The notes under the pieces: generated by a model
The model's input: only the letters and a program-made list of their open reading frames with translations
What the model was told of the DNA's origin: nothing
Database searches by the model: none
Assembly: GCA_008501585.1 (NCBI GenBank)
Contig: QQUN01000043.1
Location: forward strand, 1 to 45,103
Direction: 5' to 3'
Source of the DNA: Pseudomonadota bacterium
Lineage (GTDB): Bacteria; Pseudomonadota; Gammaproteobacteria; Burkholderiales; Rhodocyclaceae
Length of the DNA: 45,103 nucleotides
Translations under genes and position numbers: made by a program
In this document: positions 15,451 to 40,119 of the stretch, piece after piece
Numbering within the stretch: the stretch's first letter is position 1
Layout of the letters: each line of letters opens with the position of its first letter

Positions 15451-16818
15451 TCAGCCGACCTTGGGCAGATGGGCCAACGAGGCGGCCACGGCTTCGGCCG
15501 GGTACTCGTAGTTTTCGAGTTCGCCGGCAAAGTAGCGGTCATACGAGGCCATGTCGAAATGCCCGTGGCCGGTGAGGTTGAACAGGATCACCTTGGACTC
15601 GCCGGTCTGCTTGCACACCAGCGCCTCGTCGATGGCGGCGCGGATGGCGTGGCAGGACTCGGGCGCGGGGATGATGCCCTCGTTGCGGGCGAACATCACG
15701 CCGGCCTCGAAGGTGGCCAGCTGCGGCACAGCCACCGCCTCGAGCAGCTTCTCGTGGTAGAGCTGCGAGACCAGCGGCGAGTCGCCGTGGTAGCGCAGGC
15801 CGCCGGCGTGGATGCCCGGCGGCATGAAGTCATGGCCGAGGGTGTACATCTTCATCAGCGGGGTGAAGCCGGAGGCGTCGCCGAAGTCGTAAGCGTAGGC
15901 GCCCTTGGTGAGCGTCGGGCAGGAGGCCGGCTCGACGGCCACGCAGCGCAGCTTCTCGGCGCGCTTCTCGCCGGCGATCTGGTCGCACAGGAAGGGGAAG
16001 GCGATGCCGCCGAAGCTGGAGCCGCCGCCGCAGGGGCCGAGCACCACGTCGGGGTAGAGGCCGATCTTCTCCAACTGGGCCTTGGCTTCCTGGCCGATCA
16101 CCGTCTGGTGCAGCAGCACATGGTTGAGCACCGAGCCGAGGGTGTACTTGGTGTCGGCGCGGCCGGCGGCCTCTTCCACCGCCTCGGAGATGGCGATGCC
16201 GAGCGAGCCCTGGTTGTCCGGGTCCTTCTCAAGAATCGCGCGGCCGGTCTGCGTCTGTTGCGACGGGCTGGCGAACACCTCGGCACCCCAGGTCTGCATC
16301 ATCGAGCGGCGGAAGGGCTTTTGCTGGTAGCTCACGTTGACCATGAACACCCGCACATCGATGCCGAACATGCCGCCGGCAAAGGCGATGGACGAGCCCC
16401 ACTGGCCGGCGCCGGTCTCGGTGGTCAGGCGCTTGATGCCGGCCTGCTTGTTGTAATAGGCCTGCGGCACGGCGGAGTTGGGTTTGTGCGAACCGGCCGG
16501 CGAAACCCCTTCATATTTGAAGAAGATCTTGGCCGGCGTGCCCAGCGCTTTCTCCAGGCGCACGGCGCGCACCAGCGGCGTCGGCCGCCAGATCTTGTAG
16601 ATTTCGCGCACTTCCTCGGGGATGGCGATCCAGCGCTCGGAGCTCATCTCCTGCTCGATGATCGGATCGGGGAAGATCGCGCTCATCTGCTCCGGCGTGG
16701 CGGGCGAGCCGTCCGGCCCCAGCGGCGGCAGCGGCGCATTGGGCATGTCGGCCGCGATGTTGTACCAGTGGGTCGGGATGTCCTCTTCGGTCATCAGAAT
16801 GCGTGTCGGCTCGCTCAT
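15451..16818 (-). CDS. TrpB2-type tryptophan synthase beta-like PLP enzyme
   Basis: A 455-residue fold-type II PLP enzyme of the TrpB2 group, longer than ordinary TrpB. The PLP lysine is K112 in GSHKPNSA, the phosphate cup is [11 protein letters not shown], and the C-terminus carries [11 protein letters not shown]. TrpB2 proteins can make tryptophan from indole and serine without a tight TrpA partner, and no trpA is present here. It may scavenge indole or make another amino acid. The ATG at 16818 follows GGAG; an upstream extension is rejected. It sits between coaX and the SPOR gene on the same strand. Confidence 0.9.
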
Positions 16819-16905
16819 TGACTGTTCTCCGTTATGTTTTTGTCGCAACGCCGGCGCGGGCCGGCGTTCTCCGTATCCGGCGGGCATCTTAGCCCGTCTG
16901 GCGCC

Positions 16906-26197: not shown

Positions 26198-27892
26198 TCA
26201 GACCTGGAAGCGGTCCACCGAGGCCTTCAGGTCGTTGGACAACTGGCGCAGGGACTCGGCCGCCTCGGCCGTATGCGCCACCGCCGCCGCGTTCTCGTCG
26301 GTTGCGCGGGCGATCTGCTCCACATGCTGGGCAATGCTGTGGCTCACGCTGGTCTGCTCCTTCACCGAGCCGGAAATCTCGCTCATGCCCTGCGCGGCGC
26401 GGGTGGCCGACTCGCCGGTGGCGGCCATGATGCCGTTCATGCCGTCCAGATGGGTCTTGCCTGCATCCAGCGCGGCTGTACCCCGCGCCACCGCCGCCTC
26501 GACCGACTTCGACTGATCGGCCAGCGATGCGGTCACCCGATCGATCTCGTTCGCCGCCTTGGCCGATTTCTCGGCCAGCTTGCGCACCTCGTCGGCCACC
26601 ACCGCAAAGCCCCGGCCCTGCTCCCCGGCACGCGCCGCTTCGATCGCGGCGTTGAGCGCCAGCAGGTTGGTCTGCTCGGCAATCTCGGTGACCTGCCCGG
26701 TCATGCTCTCGATGCTGCGGGTGCGTGCCACGAACTCGGTCACCGACTCGGCGATGGCCTGCACCGCCGCCTCGGTCCGTTGCAGCTCGGACGACAGCCC
26801 GGCCAGGGTCTTCACGCCATTGCGCGCCTGTGCCAGGTTGTCGCCGGCCAGTGACGAGACATCGCTGGCGTGGTCGGCCACCGTGCTCACGCTGACCGAC
26901 ATTTCCTCCATCGCGGCGGCCGTTTCAGCGGCCGCATCGGCCTGCGCCGTCGAGGCCGCGTGCACCTGGTCGGCGGCCGCGCTCAGGCGCTGCGCCGCAC
27001 CGTCGACCGCTTCAGCATTGCCGCGCACGCCGCGGATGATCTCGTTCAGCGAATCGAGCAGATGGTTGAAGCTATCGGAGATGCGCGCCAGTTCTCCGGT
27101 GCCCTCCGGCGCCCGCACCCGCAGGTCGCGGCTGTGCTGCACCCGGTGGGCGGCCTCGCTGAGCGCTGCCGCGCTGCGCGACACCCGCCGCGCCACGCCC
27201 CAGGCCAGCGCCGCCACCACCAGCCCGCCGCCAAGGATCAAGGCCACCACCACACCGACGCCGCCGTTGATCTCGTTGGCGATCCCGTCGATGGGCACCG
27301 TGACCCCGATCACCCCGCGCAGGTCGCCGACCTTCCAGTCGTTCTTGGGCGTTTCCGGGTGATTGTTGTGGCAGCCGACGCAGCCCTCCGCCATGCGGTC
27401 ACCAACCGCATAGCGCAGCGACAACCGGCCATTGATGGTCTCGACCCGGCTGACCGGGGTGTTCGGGTCCTTGGCCAGCGCGTCCATGGCCGCGTTCTCG
27501 AAGTCGTCATAGCGCTCGGTCTTGGCCCGGTGCGGGAACGGGAAGCGACTGTAGAGGCGCACCTGCATGCCTTCATGGTCGCGTGCAATGCTCTCGCCCA
27601 GCGTCTTGACCAGCGTCGCCGGCAGCGGCAGCACATTGTTGTGGTCCATGAAATCGTAGTTGAGCGTCGCCCCTGCGGTGCGCGCGCGCGGCACGATTTC
27701 CTTGGTATAGAACGCCCGCAGCGAAATGATCTGGTCCGCCAGCGCCGAGGCGGTGTTGATGCCCGCCGCCGTGGCCGTATCGGCCCGCATCTGGTTGAGC
27801 AAGGCCACCACCGCGGCCACCACCACCAGGCCGCTGACCACCACCGGAAGCAGGAACTGGCGGGCCAGCCCCATTCGATTGAACCACTGCAT
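26198..27892 (-). CDS. Methyl-accepting chemotaxis protein with c-type heme sensor domain
   Basis: A 564-residue chemoreceptor. TM1 (about 12-32) and TM2 (about 211-233) bracket a periplasmic domain of the DUF3365/Tll0287-like type containing C171-V-G-C174-H175, a covalent heme-attachment motif. A HAMP region follows (about 234-285), then the signalling domain with the hairpin tip [18 protein letters not shown] and [16 protein letters not shown]. It should signal through CheA/CheW from the inner membrane, sensing redox state, oxygen or a diatomic gas. No che genes are nearby. The ATG at 27892 directly precedes TM1. Confidence 0.93.
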
Positions 27893-27995
27893 GACGCCAT
27901 CCTGTTGCCCGCTGCGGGCGATGAAGAACGATGGCGTTCCTTACGACGACCCGCGCCCCGACTTGATGGCGTCAAGCCCGCTCGGGCTGACTTTG

Positions 27996-28011
27996 TGTCA
28001 AAAAATTGACA
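27996..28011. promoter_or_regulatory. Palindrome upstream of the chemoreceptor gene
   Basis: TGTCAA-N4-TTGACA, a perfect 6-4-6 inverted repeat, lies 104 bases before the chemoreceptor ATG and just past the cupin stop. A second palindrome (AGCCCG-CT-CGGGCT) follows nearby. It could be an operator or part of a weak terminator; the U-run needed for a clear terminator is missing. Confidence 0.3.
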
Positions 28012-28015
28012 GCAA

Positions 28016-28465
28016 TCAACTGCGGAGAAAATCGGCCACCTGCGGATCACGCTCGAGCGCGGCCAGATCGTCCTCGGTGGGCAGTTGCGGACGGTCGCGC
28101 TCGGCATTGACCATGCACAAAAAACCGAGCGGCTCACCGGCGTCGGCACGGAACTGGTGCCAGCACCAGGCCGGGATATGAACCAGGTCATGCGGCCCGA
28201 TCACACTCACCTGAGCATCGACCAGGCAGCGCCCGCGACCGCGCAGGATCATCACGGCGTGGACGTGCTCATGGCGTTCGAGCGTGGAGTGCCCGCCGGC
28301 TGCCACCTCGAAGTAGCGCAGCTCGCAGCCCAGCTCGGCCGAGGCAAACAGGCGCTGCCGGCTCACGTCCTTGAACGGCGCCGCCCCCTCGGCCTTGTAG
28401 GCCAGCAGCTCCACCGCTTCCCAGCGGTAGCCGGGCAAGGCTTTGCGCACGGGTTGTTCAGCCAT
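28016..28465 (-). CDS. Cupin-domain protein paired with a RuBisCO-like protein
   Basis: A 149-residue single-cupin protein. Metal-site motif 1 reads H65-E-H67-V-H69 followed by MILRGRG; the usual Glu position appears taken by H69. Motif 2 is PHDLVHIPAWCWHQF with H103. AAGGGGG lies before the ATG, which is inside the last codons of the RuBisCO-like gene (eight-base overlap), so the two are coupled. In Rhodospirillum rubrum a cupin acts after a RuBisCO-like protein as methylthioxylulose-5-phosphate methylsulfurylase, giving deoxyxylulose 5-phosphate. The same role is a hypothesis here; generic cupin functions remain possible. Confidence 0.8.
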   Translation of the reverse strand: MAEQPVRKALPGYRWEAVELLAYKAEGAAPFKDVSRQRLFASAELGCELRYFEVAAGGHSTLERHEHVHAVMILRGRGRCLVDAQVSVIGPHDLVHIPAWCWHQFRADAGEPLGFLCMVNAERDRPQLPTEDDLAALERDPQVADFLRS

Positions 28466-29558
28466 GTCGTCCCCCTTGCGCTGCCACCGCCTGCACAAAA
28501 TCACGCATCGCCTGCGCGGGCGCCTCGGCGGCCAGCAGCGCCCCGCCGACCAGCAAGACCACATCCTCGCCGTAGCTGGCGCACATCTCGCCCACCCGCG
28601 CCGGCGTCATGCCGCCAGCTGGCACCGGCAGCGCCGGCCGGTGCGCCCCGAGCGGCGCCGCCAGCGCGCCCGCGATGCGCTGGCAGGTCGCCACGTCGTA
28701 GCTGAACCGGCCCCCGTGATTGGGGAAGATCACCATGTCGGCACCAATCAGGCGAAACAGCGTGCCAAACAGCACTGCCGGATCAATGCGCAGATTGCCG
28801 CCCAGCGCTGGGTGGGCCAGCACCGGCACCCCGAGCGCGTCATGCACCAGCTCGGCCACCTGCGACACCCCGAGCACCAGCGGGCACAGCATCACCGCCC
28901 CCACCCCCGCCTCGCGGCAGACCGCCAGCTGGCCTTGCACGGCACGGGGGCCGCCGTTCAGATTGGGCGCATAGACGCAGCGCCCGCCCGTCTCGCGGTT
29001 GGCGGCATCGACCGCCGCCTGGATGGCCGGCACCCGCTCGGCAAACGGCGCGCTGACCGGGTCGGCCAGCCCGTGGTCGTCCTTGATCAGGTGGAAGCCG
29101 GCGCGCGCCTGCTGGCCAGCCAGGGCCGCCAGCGCCGCCACCGAACTGCCCACCGGCTTGAGCGCGGTACAGGTGATCGCGCCATGCGGCACGCCCAGCC
29201 GTTCGCGCACGCCGGCCACGCCAAAGCGCGGCCCGGGCAGCGCCGGCAAGCCGTCCGGCCAGCGCACATCGACCAGGCAGACATCCGGCTGCAACGACAC
29301 ATTGCCGAACCACATGTTGAGCAGCTGGCCGGCGTCGTCGCCGACCGTCTCCAGCGCCAGCGCGATCACCGCACGAAAATGCGACGGCCCGTCCGGCGCC
29401 AGGTGCAGCACCCGCCCCATCACCGCCTCGCGCACGCGGTGATCGGTCACCGCGGCGACGGGGCACTCCACACTTTGCTCACGCGCCAGCGCCTCGGCCC
29501 GCGCCGCGATGGTGTCCGCCGAGGCGGCAATCCTGTACGTGACATGCATCCATTTCAT
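28458..29558 (-). CDS. RuBisCO-like protein (form IV large subunit)
   Basis: A 366-residue protein of the RuBisCO large-subunit superfamily, shorter than true RbcL (about 470). NMWFGNVSL (81-89) matches the N-terminal GN motif. LKPVG (K134) matches the catalytic KP strand (spinach K175). GFHLIKDDHGLAD (K159, D160, D161, H162) matches the carbamylation site, with His where carboxylases have Glu204. PAGGM (313-317) and VGGAL (337-341) are the two phosphate-site loops. The loop-6 lysine context is not recognisable, so carboxylation is unlikely. Form IV members are isomerases, enolases or (de)carboxylases in sulfur or sugar metabolism. The start (ATG 29558) has a weak ribosome site. Confidence 0.9.
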   Translation of the reverse strand: MKWMHVTYRIAASADTIAARAEALAREQSVECPVAAVTDHRVREAVMGRVLHLAPDGPSHFRAVIALALETVGDDAGQLLNMWFGNVSLQPDVCLVDVRWPDGLPALPGPRFGVAGVRERLGVPHGAITCTALKPVGSSVAALAALAGQQARAGFHLIKDDHGLADPVSAPFAERVPAIQAAVDAANRETGGRCVYAPNLNGGPRAVQGQLAVCREAGVGAVMLCPLVLGVSQVAELVHDALGVPVLAHPALGGNLRIDPAVLFGTLFRLIGADMVIFPNHGGRFSYDVATCQRIAGALAAPLGAHRPALPVPAGGMTPARVGEMCASYGEDVVLLVGGALLAAEAPAQAMRDFVQAVAAQGGRHG

Positions 29559-29654
29559 GGGACTCTGGTATACCTTTTCCTGCTGACACACTGACCGGCA
29601 TGTGCCGGCCACGACCCGGATTATGCCGTCTTTGGCCGAGGATCTCCGTCTGCC

Positions 29655-30404
29655 ATGAGCTTGCGCATCTGCACCTACAACATCCACAAGGGCTTCTCGC
29701 AGTTCAATCGCCGCATGGTGATTCACGAACTGCGCGACCGGCTGCGCCAGCTCGAGGTGGACATCGTCTTCCTGCAGGAAGTGCAGGGCATGCATTTTCG
29801 CCATGCCGCGCGGCACCCGGACTGGCCGGTCGAGCCGCAGCATGAATTCCTCGCCCGCGACATCTGGCCCGCCAGCGCCTACGGCGGCAACGCCGTCTAC
29901 GACCACGGCCACCACGGCAACGCGATTCTCAGCCGTTTCCCGATCCTCAGCAGCCACAACCAGGATGTGTCGGACCACCGCTTCGAGCGCCGCGGCCTGC
30001 TCCATTGCGAAATCTCGCCGGGCCCGGATCTGCCGACCATCCACTGCGTGTGCGTGCACCTGGGCCTGATGGCCGGCAGCCGGCGCCGCCAGATGGACGC
30101 CCTCGCCCGGCGCATGGAAACGCTCGCCGGCCCCGATGCCCCCCTGCTCATTGCCGGCGACTTCAACGACTGGCGCAACCACGCCGATGCGCTGCTGGTG
30201 GACCGGCTTGGCGTACGCGAGGCCTTCTGCGGCACGCACGGCGCCCCGGCCCGCAGCTTCCCGAGCCGCTTGCCGGTGCTGCGCCTCGACCGCATCTATG
30301 TGCGCGGACTGGCGGTCAGCGGCAGCCAGGTGCACTTCGGCCAGCCCTGGTCACGCATCTCCGACCACGCCGCCCTCACCGCCGACCTGGCCTGGCCGTC
30401 GTGA
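29655..30404 (+). CDS. Endonuclease/exonuclease/phosphatase family protein (YbhP-like)
   Basis: A 249-residue EEP-fold protein. Its core motifs are TYNIHKG (Asn), LQEVQG (metal Glu), the HHGNAILSR strand, CVHLGL, the GDFNDW catalytic Asp/Asn strand and RISDHAAL with the terminal catalytic His. This is the metal-dependent phosphodiesterase core, and order and size match E. coli YbhP, encoded next to cardiolipin synthase ClsB. The substrate is unknown; a phospholipid-related one is suggested by context only. Its TGA overlaps the clsB GTG. Confidence 0.88.
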   Translation: MSLRICTYNIHKGFSQFNRRMVIHELRDRLRQLEVDIVFLQEVQGMHFRHAARHPDWPVEPQHEFLARDIWPASAYGGNAVYDHGHHGNAILSRFPILSSHNQDVSDHRFERRGLLHCEISPGPDLPTIHCVCVHLGLMAGSRRRQMDALARRMETLAGPDAPLLIAGDFNDWRNHADALLVDRLGVREAFCGTHGAPARSFPSRLPVLRLDRIYVRGLAVSGSQVHFGQPWSRISDHAALTADLAWPS

Positions 30405-38621: not shown

Positions 38622-38698
38622 TGGCTGGGGAGGAAGGATTCGAACCCTCGAATGCCGGAATCAAAATCCGGTGCCTTAACCGACTTGGCGACTCCCCA
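38622..38698 (-). tRNA. tRNA-Gln (anticodon TTG)
   Basis: A 77-nucleotide tRNA on the minus strand with encoded CCA. The acceptor stem is TGGGGAG/CTCCCCA, the anticodon loop ATTTTGATT has anticodon TTG (reads CAA), and the T arm contains GGGTTCGAATCC. tRNA-Gln between ispE and prs is the usual betaproteobacterial order. Confidence 0.98.
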
Positions 38699-38716: not shown

Positions 38717-39556
38717 TCACACCGCCCAGTCGTACAGCGGATGCCTGTCGAGGCTTCTCGCTGCCCACGCCTGCCACCGTTCGGGGCACTGCGCGACAAC
38801 CTGCCGGGCCTGCGCTTCATCCCCCATGGGGGCAAACACACAAGCACCCGAACCGGTCATCCGCGCTGACGCGTACTGACTCAACCAGTCGATCGCCTCA
38901 GCGACCTGCGGGTACCGATCACACACCACCGGCTGCAAGTCATTCCGTGTGGTGTGCATCGCGAAGTCCGGCATTTTGATGATTTCCGTCGAACGCGTCA
39001 ACTCCTTCGCAGAAAAGATTTCAGCCGTCGGCACCGACACCCCCGGCGCCAGCACCACATACCATGACGGCGGCACAGCCATCGGCACCAGCGCCTCGCC
39101 AACGCCCTCGGCAAAGGCGTCACGCCCGAAGACGAAAAACGGCACATCGGCGCCCAGCGCCAAACCCAGTGTCTGCAAGCGCTCACGCGACCAATCCAGC
39201 TGCCAGAGCCGGTTGAGGGCAAGCAAGGTCGTGGCCGCATCGGAGCTGCCGCCGCCGAGTCCGCCGCCCATGGGCAGCACCTTGTCGACCCAGATATCGA
39301 CGCCTTGCGACACACCCGCCGCCGCCTGCAGCCGGCGCGCGGCCCGCACCACCAGGTCGTCTTCGGCCGGCACGCCCGGCACCGCCGTCATCCGCACGAT
39401 GTCGCCATCGGCCCGGCATCGAAACCGCAGGGTGTCACCCCAGTCGAGCAGGCGGAAGGCGGTCTGCAGGAGATGGTAACCATCGGCCCGGCGGCCGACG
39501 ACATGCAGAAAGAGATTGAGCTTGGCCGGCGCCAGGCAGGTGAGCGCGTCGGTCAT
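38717..39556 (-). CDS. ispE: 4-diphosphocytidyl-2-C-methyl-D-erythritol kinase
   Basis: A 279-residue GHMP kinase of the MEP isoprenoid pathway. [19 protein letters not shown] has the catalytic Lys region. [17 protein letters not shown] (96-112) is the ATP loop, LGADVPFFV holds the catalytic Asp, and [13 protein letters not shown] is the C-terminal motif. The ATG at 39556 overlaps the lolB TGA (ATGA), which decides against a GTG two codons earlier. It is the only MEP gene in the window, so it does not by itself link to the RuBisCO-like locus. Confidence 0.97.
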
Positions 39557-40119
39557 TGCCACTGGTCGATCAGCAGTTTCAGGCTCACGTCACCACGCGA
39601 GACTTCGACCAGACGGGTCGGCGCATCAAACCCGTCGGCAGCATAGCCGCGATAGCGCACCTCCCAGCCCTGCTCGACCACCCGCACCGGCCGCCCGAAC
39701 GGATCGCGCTCGCGAACATCGTCGAGGTCGATGACGCCCGCCTGCACCCAGCGTGGCAACACGGCCACCGGCACATCTGCCCCCAGCATGCGCGCCAGCA
39801 GTTCGTTGAGCGGCGCCACATGCCGCGCCCCGTCGGCCAGTTGCAACACGGCCACACCACCTGAAGATTCCAGCTCGGCCACGGTCTGCCCCAGGGGCGA
39901 GAAGAACTGCCAGCGGTCTTGCCCTTCGGCATGCTGCCAGGCAAATCGACCATGCACCGCCTCCTCGCCGCGCTGGGCGGCAAGACGGCCCGATACATTG
40001 AAGGACGACAGTACCGGGCGTTGCAGCATCGCCTGTGGCGACGGCAGGGGCACGGTCACGGGCGTTGCACATCCGGCCACTACCAGGGTGGCCGCACACA
40101 CCAGGAGCGCGCGGATCAC
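39553..40119 (-). CDS. lolB: Outer-membrane lipoprotein receptor LolB
   Basis: A 188-residue lipoprotein with the lipobox VAGC at C17 after a short signal peptide ([13 protein letters not shown]). The body has the LolB pattern: [25 protein letters not shown], a [14 protein letters not shown] strand, and a hydrophobic loop near [11 protein letters not shown]. LolB receives lipoproteins from LolA and inserts them in the outer membrane. The GTG start overlaps the TPR gene's TGA by four bases, and the stop overlaps ispE. Confidence 0.92.

Follow-up and report, generated by a model that had tools for sequence, protein, structure and literature searches.

Described systems and the gene pair

The MTA-isoprenoid shunt, in which methylthioadenosine (MTA), a sulfur compound left over from polyamine synthesis, is recycled to methanethiol and the isoprenoid precursor 1-deoxyxylulose 5-phosphate (DXP), has already been published for Rhodospirillum rubrum and Rhodopseudomonas palustris, and the locus described here is very probably this known system in another host. 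In R. rubrum (Rru_A1998 and Rru_A2000) the cupin takes off the methylthio group with glutathione (PMC5893883). R. palustris has two RuBisCO-like proteins, RLP1 (RPA2169) of the DeepYkr clade and RLP2 of the Photo clade; RLP1 is a proven 5-methylthioribulose-1-phosphate 1,3-isomerase, which forms 1-methylthioxylulose and 1-methylthioribulose 5-phosphates in a 3:1 ratio with a kcat of 1.3 per second (PMC5893883). The R. palustris cupin, deletion of which stops the shunt, is 56% identical to that of R. rubrum (PMC5893883), and both organisms use the phosphorylase MtnP (PMC5893883, PMC4958253). Homologous pairs have been noted in Meiothermus, Nitrococcus and Halorhodospira (PMC4958253), and KOfam profiles of both genes have been run against genomes in a study surveying the MEP pathway (PMC10663253). 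Among the literature matches listed, no description of the shunt in Denitromonas or Rhodocyclaceae was found.

The window, i.e. the whole stretch of 45,103 nucleotides that was analysed, contains the following features:

28458..29558, minus strand: form IV RuBisCO-like protein gene, 366 aa plus stop; predicted 5-methylthioribulose-1-phosphate 1,3-isomerase, DeepYkr type by relationship
28016..28465, minus strand: single-domain cupin gene, 149 aa plus stop; predicted 1-methylthioxylulose-5-phosphate methylsulfurylase
28458..28465, minus strand: overlap of both genes, 8 bp, suggestive of coupled translation
28471..28477, minus strand: AAGGGGG, ribosome-binding-site-like, recognised by eye, 5 bases upstream of the cupin ATG

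The frame of the RuBisCO-like protein comprises 366 codons from 29558 to 28461, with a stop ending at 28458, and that of the cupin 149 codons from 28465 to 28019, with a stop ending at 28016, so that the two genes share exactly the eight bases (28458-28465) that an earlier note had given for their overlap. Mechanically called open reading frames are longer (625 and 182 aa, respectively) and start further upstream. The shorter starts fit, since the matches of both proteins to four relatives (L006-L009) begin at residue 1 and the AAGGGGG motif precedes the cupin ATG. The 366-aa protein contains a RuBisCO large-chain catalytic domain (Pfam PF00016, E 3.9e-10) and the 149-aa protein one cupin domain (Cupin_2, PF07883, E 6.1e-12). 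A scan of positions 27800-29900 gave no promoter-like site; terminator-like sites numbered four, where shuffled sequences average 1.0, and none of these four lies on the minus strand past the cupin stop.

The four relatives are Denitromonas ohlonensis, D. halophila, a Zoogloeaceae bacterium and a Rhodocyclaceae MAG. Their RuBisCO-like proteins are 87-89% identical to that of the window, and the cupin gene follows with identical spacing. G506, a genome from the same genus as the window, encodes exactly the RuBisCO-like protein of D. halophila, and we infer from this that the genus is Denitromonas.

The isoprenoid pathway, into which the shunt would lead, is represented in the window by ispE (38720-39562, minus strand), 9 kb from the pair and adjoining a tRNA-Gln gene (38622-38698); there is no sign of a functional linkage of ispE to the pair. 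A TrpB-like pyridoxal-phosphate enzyme is encoded at 15454-16887 (minus strand; 726 bits, cut-off 366).

Relationship of the RuBisCO-like protein

Among solved proteins, PDB entry 3QFW, titled as a RuBisCO-like protein from R. palustris, comes closest to the window protein (E 1.7e-92, 47% identity); MtnW-type proteins follow, the best of them at E 3.3e-38. From its organism and its group in the tree, 3QFW is presumably RLP1 (RPA2169), and it served as the comparison sequence for the shunt; an identity of 47% is in itself not proof of an identical substrate. In a maximum-likelihood tree of 43 rows, built without the duplicate loci L039-L053, the window protein falls within a group of 21 rows (20 cupin-linked proteins and 3QFW; support 100/99). 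These 21 rows are nested in a wider group (31 rows; 96/86), which includes nine transketolase-linked proteins and is separate from the MtnW enolases. One cupin-linked protein, L011, lies inside the group of 31 and outside the group of 21, and the cupin-linked rows therefore do not form one group (three label changes). The midpoint root was used for drawing only, and long-branch warnings apply to L036, L037 and L125. His162 is conserved in 30 of the 31 rows of the wider group (Asp in L125), and Glu occupies this position in all 12 other rows; we take it to correspond to a metal-binding glutamate of RuBisCO.

The window protein thus groups with 3QFW, and with RLP1 if our assignment of that entry is right, apart from MtnW, as a DeepYkr-clade protein of the shunt should. 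This placement supports the proposal of the earlier note that the pair carries out the two-step conversion of R. rubrum or a related one. The Bacillus MtnW (YkrW-type) enolase is likewise a RuBisCO-like protein that acts on methionine-salvage intermediates, but it belongs to another tree group and has Glu in place of His162, and the window protein falls far short of the MtnW cut-offs. For the window protein the AlphaFold model is poor, with a mean pLDDT of 45.6, so that no active-site argument is drawn from it; its Foldseek list was used as a source of entry titles only.

When 398 genomes of the phylum were searched with the RuBisCO-like protein at E 1e-20, 12 gave a match, the own genome counted. 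L011-L015 belong to the wider group, and L016 is MtnW-like by score and neighbour. Locus L115 (6042-8767) belongs to the window's class but to a different family; there the RuBisCO-like gene is immediately preceded by a phosphoribulokinase-type gene and immediately followed by the cupin gene.

The cupin

The cupin is most closely related, among solved proteins, to Rru_A2000 of R. rubrum (3JZV; E 3.7e-58, 63% aligned identity), followed by the R. palustris cupin 3KGZ (E 4.3e-54, 61% aligned identity) and the Halorhodospira halophila cupin 3IBM (E 5.3e-36); beyond these three, the best match among solved cupins has E 1.1e-4. An alignment of 24 cupins, with near-copies included, one gap allowed and the duplicate loci L039-L053 except L046 left out, has 35 invariant positions, all of which are common to the window cupin and Rru_A2000. 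They include H65, H67, H69, H103 and C117, and the histidines are expected to hold a metal, as in cupins generally. The earlier note had named a lack of the residues of the methylsulfurylase clade as a ground for refuting its reading; as far as sequence can show, the reading holds, since by identity and by invariant residues the cupin belongs with the 1-methylthioxylulose-5-phosphate methylsulfurylases. The AlphaFold model is of moderate quality (mean pLDDT 62.0). In its structural matches unrelated cupins are level with Rru_A2000 in Z score, and the fold alone therefore decides nothing on function.

Other pathway genes in the own genome

The earlier note had found no gene for MTA phosphorylase or methylthioribose isomerase in the window and had proposed to look for both elsewhere in the genome. 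Matches to mtnA and to a phosphorylase of the MTAP/MTIP family are indeed there, placed by the own-genome search on other contigs. The mtnA gene lies on contig C31 (366 bits, cut-off 279), with its start at the end of C76; the ends of the two contigs share sequence, which argues for one gene across an assembly break. In the mtnA pieces L003:11000-12588 and L004:11543-13053 an aldolase gene comes after mtnA, and an aminotransferase-like gene, recognised by eye, flanks mtnA on its other side and points the opposite way. Encoded on C38 is a phosphorylase that scores above the cut-offs of both the MTA phosphorylase model (MTAP; 277 bits, cut-off 274.85) and the methylthioinosine phosphorylase model (MTIP; 399 bits, cut-off 223). 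Its best solved relative is 3OZB (E 5.1e-80), named methylthioadenosine phosphorylase, which we take to be the Pseudomonas methylthioinosine phosphorylase. In addition, a gene on C43 reaches 674 bits for NF006549 (cut-off 540), with a best solved relative named 5-methylthioadenosine/S-adenosylhomocysteine deaminase (E 8.7e-150). As the phosphorylase scores better as MTIP and a homologue of MTA deaminase is present, MTA may enter the pathway through methylthioinosine. The idea that the upstream genes are missing from the genome was rejected, as mtnA, the phosphorylase and the deaminase homologue were all located.

For the recovery of methanethiol, three loci of the own genome exceed the cut-off of TIGR01326, a model named for O-acetylhomoserine (OAH) and O-acetylserine (OAS) sulfhydrylases. 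Directly after mtnA, on the same strand, comes the genome's sole class II aldolase-family match. It scores below cut-off for fuculose-phosphate aldolase (171 bits, cut-off 264), ribulose-1-phosphate aldolase (161 bits, below 300) and MtnB (58 bits, below 137). These scores, together with the place beside mtnA, suggest that it is the Ald2 of the DHAP shunt. No match to mtnC was found in the own genome at E 1e-10.

Compared with R. rubrum, the system shares a related RuBisCO-like protein and a 63%-identical cupin, encoded close together, as well as MtnA and OAH sulfhydrylase-family genes in the genome. Unlike in R. rubrum, where one locus number separates the two genes, they overlap here by 8 bp, and the phosphorylase scores better as methylthioinosine phosphorylase, with a deaminase homologue present. 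The similarity to R. palustris lies in the adjacency of the two genes (consecutive locus numbers RPA2169-RPA2170 there, overlapping genes here), in the 47% and 61% identity to its solved proteins, and in the coexistence of an Ald2-type gene, here a putative one. The differences are the host lineage, here Rhodocyclales, the purine step, here possibly via methylthioinosine, and the position of mtnA, which to judge from the locus numbers adjoins mtnP and is far from ald2 in R. palustris, whereas it adjoins the aldolase gene here.

Occurrence in the family

The RuBisCO-like protein and the cupin were searched for in 150 sampled genomes of the family, some of them incomplete, at E 1e-10. The RuBisCO-like query matched 18 genomes; three of these matches, at about 30% identity, do not belong to the tree group, and the other 15 have 52-100% identity. 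The cupin query matched 15 genomes, an identical set, from 7 genera. The two genes share contig and strand in all 15, and in 14 the cupin gene comes within about 200 bases after the RuBisCO-like gene (about 3 kb further in G437). That the same 15 of 150 genomes carry both genes, and that the spacing is kept in L006-L009, argues that the pairing is more than chance, although the 15 carriers are related genomes and thus not independent events.

The other genes are far more widespread. In the 150 genomes mtnA was matched in 133 (129 over cut-off), an MTAP-family gene in 142 at E 1e-20 (45 over cut-off) and the Ald2-like aldolase in 123 at E 1e-15, whereas mtnC was matched at E 1e-10 in one, which is not among the 15 carriers of the pair. 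Each of these carriers has mtnA, the aldolase and an MTAP-family match, the last over cut-off in nine and just below it in six. With only 15 of 150 genomes carrying the pair, while mtnA and the aldolase are common, the pair is evidently dispensable, and on these gene counts the usual exit in the family looks like the DHAP shunt rather than MtnC-type salvage.

Transketolase-linked relatives

Further RuBisCO-like proteins of the wider group are encoded in plasmid gene runs of Rhizobiaceae and relatives. They share 38-43% identity with the window protein (33% in Vibrio), and His162 is found in eight of the nine transketolase-linked rows aligned. They differ from the window pair in that a cupin gene was not found alongside and a two-gene transketolase lies directly upstream. 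Out of 25 matched plasmid records, several of them close kin, 17 were examined. The two-gene transketolase, consisting of an N-terminal and a C-terminal half, stands directly upstream of the RuBisCO-like gene in 15 of the 17 (frame-shifted in one), mtnA is present in 14 and mtnK in 13; one record has a cupin gene, and one has neither cupin nor transketolase. Most of the loci L120, L122-L125, L127-L135 and L137 display the run mtnK-mtnA-tktN-tktC-rlp, with no cupin gene found, and where annotated a sugar ABC transporter gene is often directed away from mtnK. On the Ponticoccus alexandrii plasmid (L124:661-7047) mtnA, a molybdopterin oxidoreductase gene, the split transketolase and the RuBisCO-like gene form one run.

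Four genomes with transketolase-linked relatives (L111-L114) all have the transketolase pair. Adjoining mtnA and mtnK occur only in L112 (L112:7935-13356, minus strand); neither was found within 17 kb at L113 and L114, and L111 is a short contig. On the Vibrio nigripulchritudo plasmid (L125:2979-8614) genes for a split transketolase, for an FGGY sugar kinase and for transport accompany a distant RuBisCO-like gene, and mtnA was not found in this 13-kb stretch; the L125 protein may act on another sugar. The caveat of the earlier note that the substrate stays open may apply to these distant relatives, with a split transketolase upstream, usually mtnA, and no cupin.

The chemistry invites the guess that the transketolase-type enzyme cleaves 1-methylthioxylulose 5-phosphate and expels methanethiol. 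A literature search for transketolase, methylthioribulose and RuBisCO-like together found no paper, and among the matches listed for methylthioribose and mtnK none holds both transketolase and RuBisCO-like. The split transketolase in place of the cupin is possibly an undescribed way of using methylthiosugars.

Proposed function and alternative explanations

The pair very probably operates as the MTA-isoprenoid shunt, to judge from the relationships of its products and the gene content of the genome. In the proposed route MTA would be converted to methylthioinosine by deamination, or used directly, and after phosphorolysis MtnA would yield 5-methylthioribulose 1-phosphate. The RuBisCO-like protein would then shift the carbonyl group of this intermediate via an enediol, forming mainly 1-methylthioxylulose 5-phosphate, from which the cupin, which probably binds a metal and uses glutathione as the thiol, would strip the methylthio group to give DXP for isoprenoids. 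Methanethiol, the final product, would be returned to methionine via O-acetylhomoserine sulfhydrylase. The Ald2-like aldolase of the DHAP shunt would draw on the same 5-methylthioribulose 1-phosphate, for which it probably competes with the pair, so that, as in R. palustris, there would be two exits, the pair being one of them. The suggestion in the earlier note of a novel pathway falls away, as the route has already been published.

The RuBisCO-like protein might in addition accept 5-deoxyribulose 1-phosphate and convert it directly to DXP, by the 1,3-isomerisation proposed above and without the cupin. This extension, which is drawn from the carbon skeletons, is unlikely but conceivable. The substrate would be the product formed by MtnA from the sugar phosphate of 5'-deoxyadenosine, the by-product of radical-SAM enzymes. 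The R. rubrum phosphorylase takes both MTA and 5-deoxyadenosine (PMC4958253), and MtnA and Ald2 of E. coli have been named dual-specific (PMC10986504); among the literature matches listed, a RuBisCO-like step on 5-deoxyribulose 1-phosphate is not mentioned. If true, two by-products of SAM would be led to isoprenoids through one enzyme, with DXP synthase bypassed.

The alternative that survives best retains the chemistry of the shunt, with which it is compatible, and differs in purpose: the pair would mainly serve to remove methylthioribulose phosphate and set methanethiol free, and the recovery of DXP and methionine would be minor. In R. palustris the release of methanethiol from MTA is equal with and without sulfate and is termed 'housekeeping' by the authors (PMC5893883), and the genome studied here already has the Ald2-like branch. 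On the other hand, the release in R. palustris drops under total sulfur limitation (PMC5893883), and three OAH sulfhydrylase-family genes are present in the genome studied here; disposal as the main purpose is possible but rather unlikely. It is very unlikely that the pair acts mainly on another ketose phosphate, as the earlier note had also suggested. Such a role would suit the surroundings of the 33%-identical Vibrio relative and the lack of mtnA and mtnK within the 17 kb examined in two of the four genomes (L113 and L114), but mtnA is in the same run in 14 of the 15 plasmid records with transketolase-linked relatives, the window cupin shares 63% identity with the methylsulfurylase of R. rubrum, and the whole supply route is encoded in the own genome, so that for the window pair itself a different sugar finds no support. 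The identification of the RuBisCO-like protein as an MtnW-type 2,3-diketo-5-methylthiopentyl-1-phosphate enolase of classical salvage was rejected by score and tree and can practically be dismissed: its two top NCBIfam models are MtnW models, but the scores of 162.2 and 117.3 bits are far under the cut-offs of 409 and 513.6, the protein is set apart from MtnW in the tree, the sole class II aldolase-family match is far below the MtnB cut-off, and the own genome has no mtnC match at E 1e-10.

Implications

The MTA-isoprenoid shunt as read here places oxygen-independent methionine salvage with release of methanethiol in a lineage of the Rhodocyclales. In the family the shunt would be a patchy add-on, carried by 15 of the 150 sampled genomes, to a common pair of mtnA and aldolase genes, so that the contribution of a second exit could be studied in the family as a natural series.
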